A stretch of 64,000 nucleotides of DNA from Obelidium mucronatum (Eukaryota; Chytridiomycota; Chytridiomycetes; Chytridiales; Chytriomycetaceae), in contig JAIVFH010000023.1 of assembly GCA_025765595.1 (NCBI GenBank), positions 1-64,000 on the forward strand, given 5' to 3'. Position numbers and translations under genes: made by a program. The notes below the pieces were generated by a model, which worked only from the letters and a program-made list of their open reading frames with translations, was not told the DNA's origin and did no database searches. The number at the start of each line of letters is the position of its first letter. Position 1 is the stretch's first letter. This document shows positions 42,301 through 49,175 of the stretch, piece by piece.

Positions 42301-43001
42301 TTGGCAATGCCAAAAAAAGCAGTGGTATTAAGCAACTCAACGTCCGGTGTAGAACACGCTGGCGGATTTTCCGTTGGGATTGAAACAGAAGCGGTAGAAA
42401 CCTCCAGATCCTTGACAGCTGGATCGTCTGGAGGAGAATAAGGCAAGGCGGTAAAAGCCTCAGGGGGCACGTGGTCAGCTGACAGGCAAGCCCCATCGGA
42501 GAATGTGACCAACATGTGACGCCAATTAACGCGAGGGTTATGAAGGCGAAGCCATGGGAGACCTAAAATAAGCGGGCATGAAATATCCGCGACAAGAAGA
42601 GACATCGTTTCGGTATGAGAACCAATTCGACAAATTAAAGGTACTGTTTGTTTAGTAATGGAGCGGGAACGCGAACCGTCTGCTAAATTAACATTGTACA
42701 AAGTGGAGGAAGGAATAACAGGTATTTTATTTCTTAGAGCGAAATCTAAGGAAATAAGGCCGAAAGCCGAACACCCACTATCCACGAAGGCACCCAAAGA
42801 AAAGGACTTGGTAAGGTTTGGAGATGAAGAAGAAGAAAATTTTTCCCCAACAACAAGTGTACATGGAAGCACAATCTTGGAATCCGATGATGAGGGAACG
42901 GAAAGGTTGACAGTTTGCATCGCCAAACTGGGCGGGGAGTTTACGCCTGAGCACCCCTTCCCTGGGCGCTCCGAGCATTTTTTGCAACCAAGAGGGGGCA
43001 A
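39365..43001 (-). pseudogene. Ty3/gypsy chromovirus pol, disabled
   Basis: Domains in order: protease with AFVDSGCSAFG and ILGLPWL; reverse transcriptase with FVIVYLDDILIFS; RNase H with TDCSDFALGAILSQ; integrase zinc finger (HFGV...CDACQ); integrase core with VSDRDLRF and STEVLNQ; and a C-terminal chromodomain (EWEVQEILDSR...YLVHWMGYSNSDRSWEP). At least three defects are seen: a frameshift near 41735 in the reverse transcriptase just after LDLPDAYH; a deletion near 40320 that removes roughly 60 residues including the first catalytic Asp of integrase; and a frameshift near 40130. This copy therefore cannot move by itself. Confidence 0.92.
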
Positions 43002-43793
43002 GCTTTGGTGTCAGAAGCACCGTTGCAACCGTCTTGACCACAGTAAGCGCAAAGACCTTTATCCTTGCGGCGCTGACGTTCCTCGTGGGTAGGCTTGCCA
43101 GACTTGACATCAGCAGCGGCAACATCAGCAGACCCAGAGGGCTTGGAAGTGGCACCTGGGTTATTGGAACGGGAGCTGGAACCAGAACCTTGGTTACCCT
43201 TGGAGGATCCAGAACGTTTGTTGTTAGCAAACACGCGCTCATCGAAGACAATGGCCTTGCGCATGAGCATGGAGAGGTTGGTTGGTTGAGGTTCCAGACC
43301 ATCAATATAGTTCATCACGTGAAGCTTGAGACCTTGCTTGAACATCAGCATCTTGGTGTAGTCATTGTGTTGAGTACCAGCAATCCAGCGGAGGAAATCG
43401 CAGGCGTAGGCTTGACAAGAAGTAGTTTGCGTCAAGGTCTTGGCCTTGTCATTAGCAATTGCTTCAGCACACGTGGATCTTCGCCGAAGAAGGCGGCAAA
43501 GACATCAGCAAATTCCTGAAAGCTCTTGAACTGGAGCTCAGGCTTGGCGACATGGTTGATGTACCACTTGGCAGCATTACCACCAAGGTAGGAAACCACA
43601 AAAGCAATCTTGGACTTGGTGGAAAGGATACCCTTGGGTCCAGAATTGTCAAAATTGAGATAGACTTTGAGCATAAAGTCATCAAAATCATCGGTAGTGA
43701 GGCCCTTGAAAACAGGTGGCTTGGCAACACGAAGAGAAATTTTATCAGACTTGGAGGATTCGAACCAGGAACCCGAGTCAGACTGATCATCAG
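42941..43793 (-). pseudogene. Gypsy gag, downstream part
   Basis: Frame with the gag core (SWFESSKSDKISLRVAKPP, FKGLTTDDFDDFMLKVYLNF, FADVFAAFFGEDP) and then GLCAYCGQDGC, a Cys-rich knuckle, overlapping the start of pol in another frame. The core frame breaks near 43435. Its true beginning lies at 49151; the two parts are separated by an inserted 4.9-kb element at 43794. Confidence 0.82.
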
Positions 43794-44133
43794 GGGGGGG
43801 GGACACGGGCTTGGGTAGGCCATGCTCCTTGGTGTCTACAAGGTGTCTGCAAAAAATTTTCTGGAGCAAGAGATTCTGGTTGTTACACGAAATTTGTGTA
43901 ACTCTCCATCTTTGCTTTTTTAGCCAAAATCGGACCATAACAGGTTTCGAACCGAGAACCTGCTGCGTCCTGTGTGCACGCCTTCGCCAACCAAGCTACC
44001 ACACGCTAATTACAAGGCAAATGTTTTACGTACGTGATTTTGGATGGCTAATTGGCATGAAACAAACTGTGTGGGCCTAAAACAGTCAAATTGGTAAAAA
44101 TATATTCCAAACACACCAAAAAAATACAAATAA

Positions 44134-44610
44134 CTAATTCTCTTTATCTGAATCACCATCAACCTCCATTTCATCTCCTGCAGATTCTACTGTCACATTC
44201 TTCTTTCCCTTTCCTTTGCCAATTCCCGCACCTGTGGTTTTATAAACCTTGCTCAAAATAACATCCTGCTTTTCCCTACCCCTTGCAATGGCTGCTGCTC
44301 TCACATTCACTCTGAGATTGCGGTTTTGTCGCTCAGACTCGGTGAGTTTCCGCTGATTCACATGTGGGGTAATCTTACGTTTTGCATTTGTTTGCTTCTG
44401 TAAATGTTCCAACATTCTTCTCTGGGCTTCTAATTTCCTAGATTTGGGTCCACAAGCAGCATTCACCCAATCATCCAAATTTTCCACAGCAGACTTTGCC
44501 AAGTATGTGCTAAAACAATTCAAAGCAATTGGTATTGAAGTATTTATGCAAAAGCAAAAAACTTACTTGCTTTCATTGTTCAAACCAAGAAAGAAGTTAG
44601 TGTTGTTCAT
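44134..44610 (-). CDS. Small basic/acidic protein of the nested element, two exons
   Basis: Exon 1 (44610-44567, MNNTNFFLGLNNES) and exon 2 (44509-44134) join in frame into 139 residues. The first half includes SAVENLDDWVNAACGPKS and a Lys/Arg-rich helical stretch (RRMLEHLQKQTNAKRK), then NLRVNVRAAAIARGREKQ. The second half is Gly-Lys rich (GAGIGKGKGKKN), ending in an acidic tail (DEMEVDGDSDKEN). It could be a DNA-binding accessory factor; I recognise no family. Its start lies 33 bp downstream of the large gene's stop, on the same strand. Confidence 0.65.
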
Positions 44611-44643
44611 GATAATAGCGCTTTGGAAGGTTTTTGCTCGGTA

Positions 44644-47600
44644 TTAGCTGAGTTTGATTGAATCAACATCGGCTTTACCCGCCCGTCCAGCTATACCAGT
44701 TGTATTGCAACGGCGAGTGTTATTAAAGTACTATCGTATGTGGGTATTACTACAGGACTAATAAAAAGAATTGGACACACCTGTTCAACAAAGTTGTTCC
44801 CAAACACTGCACGACCAATAAACAAAACAGCAGACATATCGACACCTTCAGAAGCAAGTTCATCACAAAGCGTCAGGAAGTTTCGACACAGTATCAATAG
44901 TCCCAGCACAGATGTATATGAAAGACCATCAAAATGACCATTCCGGCATGTTTTGGCTGAACTCAATTGTTTGCCAAACCTATCCAAAATCTGCTTCTCC
45001 ATTCCCTTTACAAACTGTATGCGTTCCAAGTTTGAGATACCGCGTTCATCAATAGCTCTATACAAGTTGCTAACATCCTCCAGAAACTCAGCGCCTGTAA
45101 CATTTCCCTCTGTAGCAAGATACTGACAGGTTGTCTCACTAAATGCCTTCTTTCCCAGTTCCACATTCTGTGTATCTCGGCAAAACCACGATGCATCAAG
45201 GATACCCTCAAGGGAAGAGCCAATTCCTTCATAGTTACAGGCACATATCCCCTTTACAAGGTTCTTTGGAATCAAGTGATCGTAATCTGGATTGATGAGG
45301 AGAGACTTGGAATCATCAAGAGGGTGGGGTAATGGGTGGTAGATGTCAACATTCAAGGAAGTTTGAGACTTGAGGTGTTGACGGTTGACAGCCAAATCAA
45401 TGGAATGTCGTACATGAAAGAGAACAGACGACAATACTTTTGACATAGGTGCCATGGTCAAATGGGACGACTTTGGTGTGATAGCAGACTGAAGAACTCT
45501 CCACAACCCGACCAATTCCTGATCTTCAATAGAGTAATGAGAGTCTCTTGGCTGTAGCTCTTCTTGTTTGCGGGTATAGAACTCAATCGTGACTTCGACC
45601 AATGATTGAAAATCCTCGGAATATTTCTCCCAGAGTTGCTGAATCGTCAGTAACAACTTAGGCTGATTACTTTCAGAAAAGAAGAGAGAAGGCTCAAAGT
45701 GCAATACAATAGATTCGGCCAAGATATAGAGATCTGGTGAATGATGATTCAAATTGCTCGAATGAGCCTTTGCAAGAAGCTGGCGAACAAATTCCACTGC
45801 AATGGATGGTGGCAACATGAACGTTTTCGGCTCATCAATAAGTGATCGAGATTGACGAAGCCAAACAATTGCTTCAGCATTTAAAACTGGAGGCGGTAGT
45901 TGATGGACAAGCTGGCGTGTTGACAGGTACTCCGCCATAGTGACTGTAATGGCATTAGCTTGACAGAGGGATCGGGCAATTCCCCTTTTCCCCTCCAGCA
46001 AATCAGAGATTTTTTGTTCGGTACCTTGATGTAAAGAGCGGTAGAGAGTATATTGGCTGTCTCCAAAAGGGTTACCAATCAAGCTGAAGAATTCGCCATC
46101 TGTTGTGAAAGAACGAACAAGCAATTTTGGCTCTTTCTCGTGAATTTGCTGCCCAAGACTCCAAGCATGTTGAAATATAGGATCTTTGGGACCTGAACCA
46201 GAAATGGCGCAAATTGATGCCGTGGAGTTCTTGCCAGACATTGAATCTACAACAACAAAGGCAGCAACTTGATCTGCAGCATGGATACTGATTGTCTTCC
46301 AATTGAGTTCAAGAAGGCTAACTTGATTCACAACAAATATGAGTAGCTCGCGCCAAACAGGCTCTTTAAAACCATACTTCCATCTGGCCACATCACTGAT
46401 AAAGTAGGGATTGTCACGACGAACATATCCGCGAAGTATAATTTCCTCAAGAGACTCTTCCAATAAAACCAAAAGAACAACAAGGAGACCAAGCAACTGC
46501 GTTGTTTTCTTGTACAAATCGAATAGAGTTGTGTGCCGGAATTCCAAAGATTTCAAAGACTGCAATTTTGATGCGTTCACAACCCCATTTGCAGCCAAAT
46601 CTGAATCAATAGTGTCCTTTTTTGAAAGCCACATCTTCGAGGCTTTGTAGGAAGCACGCGAGAGGTCGGGAACTATTGAGTGCGAGAAGTACCTCTTCTT
46701 TGCCTGAAGCCAACCAAAAACAAAATTCAGGCCTGCGTTTGAATTCTGCACATTAAGAGGATTCCACACGTCATTGATTCTTGAGGCGTGAAGCCTTTGA
46801 ATATGCTCTATTGCTACTTCTCGACTGCGACGAAATTCCTGTGAATGGAAAAAAGTCAGAAGTAGAATTCTTGGATGAATGCCCACCCACCTTTTCAACT
46901 TCTACAACTGTTTTATCACCAATCATATCAACACATCCAATCAGCCTGTTGTGTGCGCGGTTGTATTCAACAAATTCCATGGTTTGGCCTGGATGAATAG
47001 CATCAATTTGCATACAAAGAAATGAATGGGGTTTTTTGGTGAGCATTTCCTTGCCCAATGCTATTGATGGCTCCAAATCAACTCCCTTCTGGTGAACCAT
47101 CAGCTGCCTGCTCTCGCCGTTCATCTTCCGTTGAAGATAGCGCGGGTCTGGAATCGCAATATTACTGCGATTTTCAGAAGGACCAGTCCCAGTCTTGTGT
47201 CCTTCGCCACGTAGAAACCGAAGCACTCCTGCCGTTGAAATTGACAAGAAGATGGTCCAAAAGAGAGTTTCCACAGTGGAATAGCGCAATCGAGTGATGT
47301 ATTCAATGCTGTGAGATGAAACTGGTAAGCTGTAGTTTTATAAAGGATGACAACATACTATTTCGATTGAACAGTTGTGCACATCATGTTATACCAGAAA
47401 GAGTCTACATCTCCGTAGCCATTGCTAAAGCATTCAAGGATAAAGAGAACTAGATCGCGACCGCCTGATGCTTGAATCAATTCAGTGTACTTGGGAAGCA
47501 GACTTGTGTATTTTGAGAAATCGTGGGTATTCGGTAAACTTCCAGGAGGATTGCACGGAGGTGACAGAAAACCTGAAATCAATATTTATTCACATGGTTT

Positions 47601-48605
47601 AATACAATATATAGGGCCATTCAATAAACAGGAAAGGAAGGCAAGTTGGGTGAGCAAAAGAAAAATAAGACAAATGGTGAGACCCTTGCGAAAAGAAGCG
47701 AAATATTAAATTAAGTACTGGGGAAAAGCTGGTGTTCCACCAGAGGAAGGATGGGGGAGTTGGTGTTGGAGAGGCAACCACACCAACAAGAACAAATAAA
47801 AAAAAAATAGCATAAATGGTGAGACCCTCGCGAAAAAAAGCGAAATATTAAATTAAGTACTGGGGAAAAGCTGGTGTTCCACCAGAGGAAGGATGGGGGA
47901 GTTGGTGTTGGAGAGGCAACCACACCAACAAGAACAATTAAAAAAAAAATAGCATAAATGGTGAGACCCTCGCGAAAAGAAGCGAAATATTAAATTAAGT
48001 ACTGGGGAAAAGCTGGTGTTCCACCAGAGGAAGGATGGGGGAGTTGGTGTTGGAGAGGCAACCACACCAACAAGAACAATTAAAAAAAAAATAGCATAAA
48101 TGGTGAGACCCTCGCGAAATGAAGCGAAATCAGTCTAATAAAGCTTCTGTGCACTAACCAGGTCCTAGGTTCACATTGCCTAGCTCCAGCAACAAACACC
48201 TTGCAAACTGCACCTCCTCTTGACAAGTCCCACCACCCAAGAACAGTGATAACAGCTTCCCAGAGATCCGATTTATTCCGCTACATATGTTTTTTAAGCC
48301 TGCTCTGGTTGCAACAAGACAGTCTGTATGATGGACCTCAACACCCATCAGATCCTTGACTGCAGGCTCCCTGCCCAGTTTTTTGATTTCAAAGAAAGCT
48401 GCAAACTCTTTCAGACTGAATACTAGTTCATCTGTTGCATTCAGTCTGTAGCTGGTGAGTTTTCGGAACTTTCTATAAATAGAATAGAGCCAGATCACCT
48501 ATATCCTTGGAAAACAGGTTCTCCCTTAAGTGTGATGCTTCTTCCTTGATAGGATAAGAAAAGATCCGGAACAGCAGTGCACTTGGGGGTAGTTTTGTGG
48601 ACCAT
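44644..48605 (-). CDS. Large protein of the nested element, candidate transposase, six exons
   Basis: Exons 48605-48499, 48472-48159, 47572-47359, 47308-46891, 46838-44781 and 44730-44644 keep one frame throughout, giving 1065 residues. The first intron would be only 26 nt. The protein begins MVHKTTPKCTAVPDLF. I recognise no domain. Possible acidic catalytic candidates sit at strand ends: CMQIDAIHPGQTM, GCVDMIGD, FVVVDSMSG and SFTTDGEFFS; a DDE/RNase H-like fold is therefore conceivable but unproven. A hydrophobic run (LLGLLVVLLVLLEE) lies near residue 450. The end reads NNTRRCNTTGIAGRAGKADV. No stop or frameshift was found, in contrast to every other element in this stretch. Confidence 0.7.
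47674..48125. repeat. 142-bp minisatellite inside an intron of the nested element
   Basis: Three nearly identical 142-bp copies (starts 47674, 47816, 47958) plus a partial fourth from 48100. Each contains ATGGTGAGACCC, GAAGCGAAATATTAAATTAA, GGGGAAAAGCTGGTGTTCC and an A-run. The array fills most of the intron 48158-47573 of the large element gene. Confidence 0.92.
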
Positions 48606-48711
48606 GGTGGTCTGGCTTTTGTGGGCTGTTGGTGGGCTGTTGGCAAAGATTTTCTGTCTGGGAGAGAAGGTACTAATTTTGTCCCTTACACCCCCTTTGT
48701 CCCCCCCCCCT

Positions 48712-49151
48712 GACTGATCATCAGAGTCCGAAGCACTACCAACTGGGCTAACTGAACGTTGACATTGAACTTTACGCTCGGCTTTTGATGACGCAGCAAA
48801 GACTTCCATGACTTTATCAAGGCGACTGGATTGAAGGCGAACAAGACGAGAGAGAGCCAATAGGTCTGTACGGAAAGCATCCATGGATGTGGCCACATCA
48901 AATTCATTATCCGTGTTGGCTTCCATGTAGCGACTGGCTTCATCAATTCCATCCAGCACGTTGTTGGTTTGCTGTTCAGATTCATCATCATCAAAGTCGT
49001 TCTTGAGAGAGACCAGGTTGGGAGCGGCGGAGCGACGAGTAAGCAAGGATTGATCAGCGGCGGGGTTTGAAGGACCAGCGGCCGAAGAAGACGAAGCAGC
49101 GGCAAAACCGACAGATTTCCGAGGAGCGGTAGCAGGAGGAGTATCAGCCAT
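48712..49151 (-). pseudogene. Gypsy gag, N-terminal part
   Basis: Starts with an ATG (MADTPPATAPRKSVGF) only 24 bp after the LTR. It is rich in Ala, Ser and acidic residues, with a possible coiled region (FRTDLLALSRLVRLQ). It stops being gag at the TGATCA site where the 4.9-kb element entered; the rest of gag continues at 43793. Confidence 0.8.
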
Positions 49152-49157
49152 TATTGT

Positions 49158-49175
49158 GTTTTAGTTTCAATACTA
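49158..49175 (-). promoter_or_regulatory. Gypsy primer-binding site, self-priming type
   Basis: Directly next to the 5' LTR the element reads TAGTATTGAAACTAAAAC. The eleven bases 49163-49173 are complementary to AGTTTCAATAC, which lies inside the LTR about 34 bp downstream of a TATA-like CATAAATAG (49318-49328 in this LTR), where the transcript would start. This matches the Tf1/sushi self-priming arrangement. Confidence 0.65.

Follow-up and report, generated by a model that had tools for sequence, protein, structure and literature searches.

The window is a stretch of 64,000 nucleotides of the chytrid Obelidium mucronatum, positions 1 to 64,000 of contig JAIVFH010000023.1 (C23 below), in a genome assembly of 48.3 Mb and 694 contigs. 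At 43791..48712 a DNA transposon with CAGGGG...CCCCTG ends interrupts gypsy gag sequence. On its minus strand it carries a long, intron-containing gene, which we discuss as the gene of its transposase. The features, with the evidence for each in brackets, are:

43782..43790, no strand: left copy of the 9-bp target site duplication, ACTGATCAT (identical to 48713-48721)
43791..48712, gene on the minus strand: whole DNA transposon, 4,922 bp, CAGGGG...CCCCTG (repeats, other copies, empty sites)
43791..43805, plus strand: left terminal inverted repeat, CAGGGGGGGGGGACA, 15 bp (repeat and terminus reading)
44134..44610, minus strand: open reading frame (ORF) of 139 codons, intron at about 44510-44566 (frame and comparison with relatives)
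44644..44730, minus strand: predicted transposase, exon 6, ending at the in-frame stop 44644-44646 (splicing; stop not in the C31, C88, C176 and C36 copies)
44781..46838, minus strand: predicted transposase, exon 5, with D598 (46098-46100) and E1036 (44784-44786) (splicing, alignment, ratio of non-synonymous to synonymous substitution rates, dN/dS)
within exon 5, minus strand: DxxH motif, D869 (45285-45287) and H872 (45276-45278) (alignment)
46891..47308, minus strand: predicted transposase, exon 4, with the proposed catalytic D314 (codon 47002-47004) (splicing, family alignment)
47359..47572, minus strand: predicted transposase, exon 3 (splicing)
47656..48130, no strand: tandem array within intron 2, three units of 142 bp (repeat search)
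48159..48472, minus strand: predicted transposase, exon 2 (splicing; homology in the C31 copy)
48499..48605, minus strand: predicted transposase, exon 1 (splicing; the NCBI model splices differently here)
48698..48712, minus strand: right terminal inverted repeat, 15 bp, perfect (repeat and terminus reading)
48713..48721, no strand: right copy of the 9-bp target site duplication (identical to 43782-43790)

A sequence-only reading of the locus had described inverted ends of a G-run plus ACA, a direct repeat outside them and an insertion into gag, and all of this was borne out. The interval carries a perfect 16-nt inverted pair, TCAGGGGGGGGGGACA. The direct repeat is a 13-mer, GACTGATCATCAG, at 43781-43793 and 48712-48724. 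When the genome was searched with 43700-48800, 23 paralogous places were found in which the left and right gypsy flanks abut. The overlap of the two flank matches is 13 bases at 19 of these places and 11, 12, 16 and 16 bases at the remaining four. Seven of nine fetched loci displayed the single, uninterrupted site, three with the exact 13-mer and four with one difference; the other two (L023, L025) were not displayed by the text pattern used. Because gypsy flanks abut in 23 places and empty sites are on display, the insert is an insertion into gypsy gag sequence, and the sister gypsy copies represent the empty site.

The length of the duplication was read from other copies. The left end matches 14 places in the genome, nine of which have no usable end pair. 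The five with both ends, all CAGGGG...CCCCTG with an exact 9-bp duplication, comprise elements of 114-137 bp on C29, C37 and C86 and elements of 768 and 803 bp on C206 and C32. The two latter are the both-ended copies of a non-autonomous family (L030, L032, L033, L034, L036, L039, L040) which shares its left end with the window element; outside the ends nothing in it was seen to match that element. The terminal G-run varies in length, from 7 G in L033 (C206) to about 30 in L030 (C32:232285). A distant family (F2) has ends CAGGGGG[A/G]TGGGACTCA at C36 and 9-bp duplications at C36, C78, C89, C179 and C225; a further F2 pair at C31 has no readable ends. A third family (F3), at C37:22390-27742, ends in CAGGGGGGTGAAG and is flanked by the duplication TGCTTAATT. 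In all, every one of the 12 two-ended copies, drawn from three protein families, has a duplication of exactly 9 bp. Apart from the window, the rows of its own type (F1) were accepted by a scan that demanded a 7-11-bp duplication beside inverted ends, so that mutated duplications could not count, and the C36 and C37 elements likewise came from scans demanding a duplication (8-13 and 7-11 bp, respectively). For C78, C89, C179 and C225 the reading started from fixed CAGGGG ends with no duplication demanded, and four of four gave 9 bp. A rearranged copy on C10 was left out of the count. Judged by the 11 other two-ended copies, the window has a 9-bp target duplication (ACTGATCAT), with the element beginning at CAG and ending at CTG. 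The 13-mer consists of these 9 bp plus a G and a CAG which the target shares with the termini by chance: the site in the target was preceded by G and followed by CAG, letters that also occur at the termini. A duplication of 12-13 bp, as read from the window sequence, is therefore not upheld. Neither is the proposed TGATCA palindrome as a target core, which is present in the window duplication only and in none of the 11 others.

The interpretation as a mobile DNA transposon stands, because other copies exist (C29, C37, C86, C206, C32 and the C36 and C37 families), their ends coincide with the G-runs, as a genome search for other copies established, and in each of three divergent families such ends accompany the large protein. 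Recent activity had also been claimed, and here the picture is mixed. Over 110-116 matched bases, the three non-autonomous copies (114-137 bp) share 99-100% identity, and this suggests recent movement. A second near-identical full-length copy was not seen in the genome search, the best other copy being 89% identical and devoid of ends. Short derivatives that retain only the ends have produced their own 9-bp duplications, which suggests that no sequence beyond the ends is required in cis.

Splicing at GT/AG junctions yields the predicted six-exon frame of 1065 codons on the minus strand. Intron 1 of only 26 nt is doubtful and constitutes the least certain junction. Pieces of the encoded protein were found in C31 (89% DNA identity over the main piece, incomplete) and in C88 and C176 (74%). 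Exon 5 has dN/dS values of 0.25, 0.16 and 0.16 against C31, C88 and C176 (638-671 codons). Selection therefore acted on the frame during most of the time over which these copies diverged. More distant homologues belong to the C36 family (27-44%, piece by piece) and the C10/C37 family (28% for the best piece); in the C36 and C37 elements they sit between the ends. The sequence-only reading saw two intact, separate genes without damage. This did not hold up. The 139-codon ORF starts 33 bases past the stop 44644-44646 in the same frame as the 1065-codon ORF. The stop site is open in the copies on C31, C88 and C176, all of which have length changes of their own nearby and are not intact, and C36 has a single exon that begins just past the conserved VEQ and extends across the region homologous to the start of the small ORF. 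Since it shares the frame, is open in three copies and continuous in C36, the small ORF is most likely the C-terminus of the transposase, cut off by the stop; the window copy would then not be undamaged. That both parts function, either with the small ORF as a separate accessory gene or with the stop spliced out, appears unlikely to us. The small ORF does begin with ATG, yet the shared frame and the open or continuous relatives speak against a second gene. As to splicing, the NCBI model P0001 unites both parts through a predicted intron that takes out the stop; the segment removed, however, resembles coding sequence (G.GR) in C36 and C10. This gene model, BDR26DRAFT_933197 (P0001, 1594 amino acids; window 43000-49160), is a chimera of gypsy gag, transposase and gag again.

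Single-sequence searches of protein databases returned Obelidium proteins only, two matches each, with P0001 matching 98% of the searched region at 99% identity. With an alignment as query three matches were obtained, adding one further Obelidium protein and one from Rhizoclosmatium hyalinum (1010 amino acids, 39% identical over 95%). PHROG gave no match for the proteins scanned, and 187 pattern matches in viral contigs contained no relative. Searches of PDB sequences with the exon-5 ORF and with the alignment returned only BurrH (E-values 9e-7 and 1.6e-4, about 45 residues); we took this resemblance as local and probably due to chance. No description of the transposon was found in the open-licence literature, in agreement with the earlier suspicion of an undescribed family; Repbase and subscription papers were not covered and it may be listed there.

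Residues 104-565 of the Drosophila P transposase (6p5a) were compared with the family profile by hhalign. The match spans 93 columns with a score of 35.2 and a P-value of 0.0017. None of 200 shuffled P sequences reached this score (highest 26.1, median 16.5), and the reversed P sequence scored 14.0. Five Obelidium control ORFs scored 16.9-21.4: two from Mutator-like elements (MULEs; 16.9 and 17.4), two from hATs (20.8 and 21.2) and one from a Kyakuja-Dileera-Zisupton (KDZ) element (21.4). Leave-one-out profiles hit the same P region with scores of 27.0-35.6. The alignment places NPDYDHLIP of the family (D869/H872) on FSDTPHLIK of P, which contains the DxxH motif (D339/H342), and VELGKKAFSETT on VKLATQLFSNTT. 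The match continues past DxxH into the following helix region, to about P residue 447. Across five aligned family proteins D, D, DxxH-D and E columns are invariant; the invariant acidic residues include D314, D598, D869, D948, E1011 and E1036 (window numbering). H872 is missing from the annotated protein P0002.

For the P superfamily the signature D-D-[C/D]xxH-E has been given (PMC8230255; here and below, statements from cited papers refer to excerpts of these sources). We propose a D-D-DxxH-E order for the window family with D314-D598-E1036 as the catalytic triad. The equivalence of these three residues to P was read by eye: IDAI would correspond to P D230, TTDGE to D303, and NNFVEQYF to NQDIVEHFF with E531. 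The first two aspartates would be 284 residues apart in the window protein (280 in Rhizoclosmatium, 326 in C36, 278 in C10) against 73 in P, and the second would precede DxxH by 271 residues against 36 in P. From DxxH to E it is 167 residues in the window protein and 192 in P. If the triad is right, the usual insertion place of P is kept and two further long stretches were added.

Taken together, we consider the element to be probably a cut-and-paste DNA transposon with its own transposase, very distantly related to those of the P-element group. With the P superfamily (Drosophila P, THAP9, Galileo) it shares terminal inverted repeats, an intron-containing gene and short derivatives with both ends; the profile match around DxxH and the proposed motif order may be further common features. 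A number of observations weigh against a P relationship. The hhalign probability of the match is only 15%; the 93 columns exclude the first and second D and the E, and in the profile alignment no acidic residue of the window protein stands opposite P D444, reported as important (PMC8230255). As single members, F1, Rhizoclosmatium and F2 align weakly (P-values 0.21-0.31) with pieces of the P region, and F3 alone aligns outside it. The controls were MULE, hAT and KDZ; Kolobok and Dada, which share DxxH, were not among them. No Pfam or NCBIfam model reached its cut-off in the family proteins scanned; specifically, Pfam detected no THAP domain in P0001-P0003, and TNP-like_GBD, for the GTP-binding insertion domain that goes with the GTP-dependent transposition of P, was not matched in the family proteins. 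The duplications of 9 bp differ from the 8 bp of P elements (PMC7776569) and the 7-8 bp of Galileo (PMC4168063), as do the CAGGGG G-run ends from the P type. An AlphaFold model of the Rhizoclosmatium protein from a four-sequence alignment had a mean predicted local distance difference test (pLDDT) of 34.6 and was unusable as a fold, and Foldseek with this low-confidence model gave no match at E 0.001. The model's string of strands and helices would at most be consistent with an RNase H fold that is split. Finally, the same genome harbours two closely similar P-like transposase loci, L057 (C20:338087) and L058 (C9:9500), which match Pfam TNP-like_RNaseH_N, a model not matched in the window family; their ORFs had no THAP match by Pfam. 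By eye they have a similar motif order (DEM, DAGG, VH, NV.LA..FS), yet their comparison with the family profile was not significant (score 16.9, P-value 0.36), and adding them to the P profile lowered the score to 24.0.

Some of these points would also fit a separate DDE superfamily, whose relationship to P, hAT, MULE, Kolobok and Dada goes no further than common membership of that whole group and which is no closer to P than to Kolobok or Dada. The P similarity is weak and local and the chytrid P-like proteins are not clearly matched, the duplications are not of 7-8 bp, the motifs are widely spaced, and DxxH is common to hAT, Kolobok, P, MuDR and Dada (PMC3706591). We regard this as a real possibility, although we lean against it: the match reaches beyond DxxH to about P residue 447 and outscores the hAT, MULE and KDZ controls. 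Dada resembles the window family in its large, intron-rich DDE transposase with DxxH, and some members (Laccaria, Ectocarpus) have an insert between the second D and DxxH; Dada elements, however, make 6-7-bp duplications in RNA genes, namely snRNA or tRNA genes (PMC3706591). Despite a tRNA-like look of the flanks, ARAGORN found no tRNA gene in the 15 loci searched, and two Rfam scans found no tRNA family. KDZ elements also have large transposases in fungi and are present in this genome with 16 matches. PF18758 was not matched in the window-family proteins, and the control KDZ ORF stayed at its low score; Zisupton and Zisupton-1_PGr (Dileera) duplicate 8 bp (PMC12730594).

Duplications of 9 bp and G-rich ends are ordinary for MULEs, which are present in the genome with six matches. 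An assignment to MULEs nevertheless is very improbable, as the family proteins have no match to the MULE model PF10551 and the MULE control ORFs scored close to the shuffle median. CAGGG termini, as in the window element with its CAGGGG, are frequent in hATs, and 41 hAT matches were counted in the genome. We hardly give a hAT origin any credence: PF05699, the hAT dimerisation domain, was not matched, the hAT ORFs scored well below P, and the duplication is 9 bp in every one of the two-ended copies whereas hATs usually make 8 bp (PMC12730594).

On the favoured reading of a P-related transposon, a transposase of about 1065 amino acids in the window copy, or about 1200 where the C-terminal part is joined, would bind and pair the two CAGGGG termini. 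Its putative DDE active site would excise the element. Joining to the target with a 9-bp stagger and repair by the host would generate the 9-bp duplication. Derivatives that kept the ends (114-137 bp; about 770-800 bp) were presumably moved in trans. Because a 9-bp duplication and a missing THAP domain are at variance with the features of P membership, we name the element P-like and do not file it as a P element. The chances are about even that it represents a new superfamily or a deep P-related clade in chytrids, characterized by CAGGGG termini, 9-bp duplications and an RNase H core with long insertions between the first and second D and between the second D and DxxH, in contrast to the compact core of P. 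A large, apparently unannotated transposon lineage is added to an under-sampled fungal phylum, and hypothetical proteins which the searched domain libraries do not recognise are explained. CAGGGG ends with 9-bp duplications provide clean diagnostic marks for annotation. If the split catalytic core is right, the P-type DDE fold would tolerate large insertions where P has none.

Some copies are rearranged. At C10:313942-321599 two matches to the third family lie in opposite orientation about 7 kb apart, with ends out of the usual order within the stretch read; the arrangement looks like an inverted duplication. The copies on C88 (120500-141500; L082+L011+L012+L081) and C176 (38000-47000; L010) lie between long, near-perfect inverted repeats. 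The arms on C88 measure about 3.8 kb within the fetched stretch, are 99.6-100% identical and reach its edge. Elements with long inverted repeats were considered and rejected: the stretches read contain no CAGGGG ends and a gypsy-like integrase piece adjoins both. Both are treated as copies caught in rearrangements. Relative to C176, the C88 copy is interrupted by a stretch of about 4.9 kb with a KDZ transposase match at C88:130740-131450. In the window element, the 142-bp units of intron 2 are 96% alike over a 191-nt match, and parts of the unit match the copies on C31, C176, C88 and C99.

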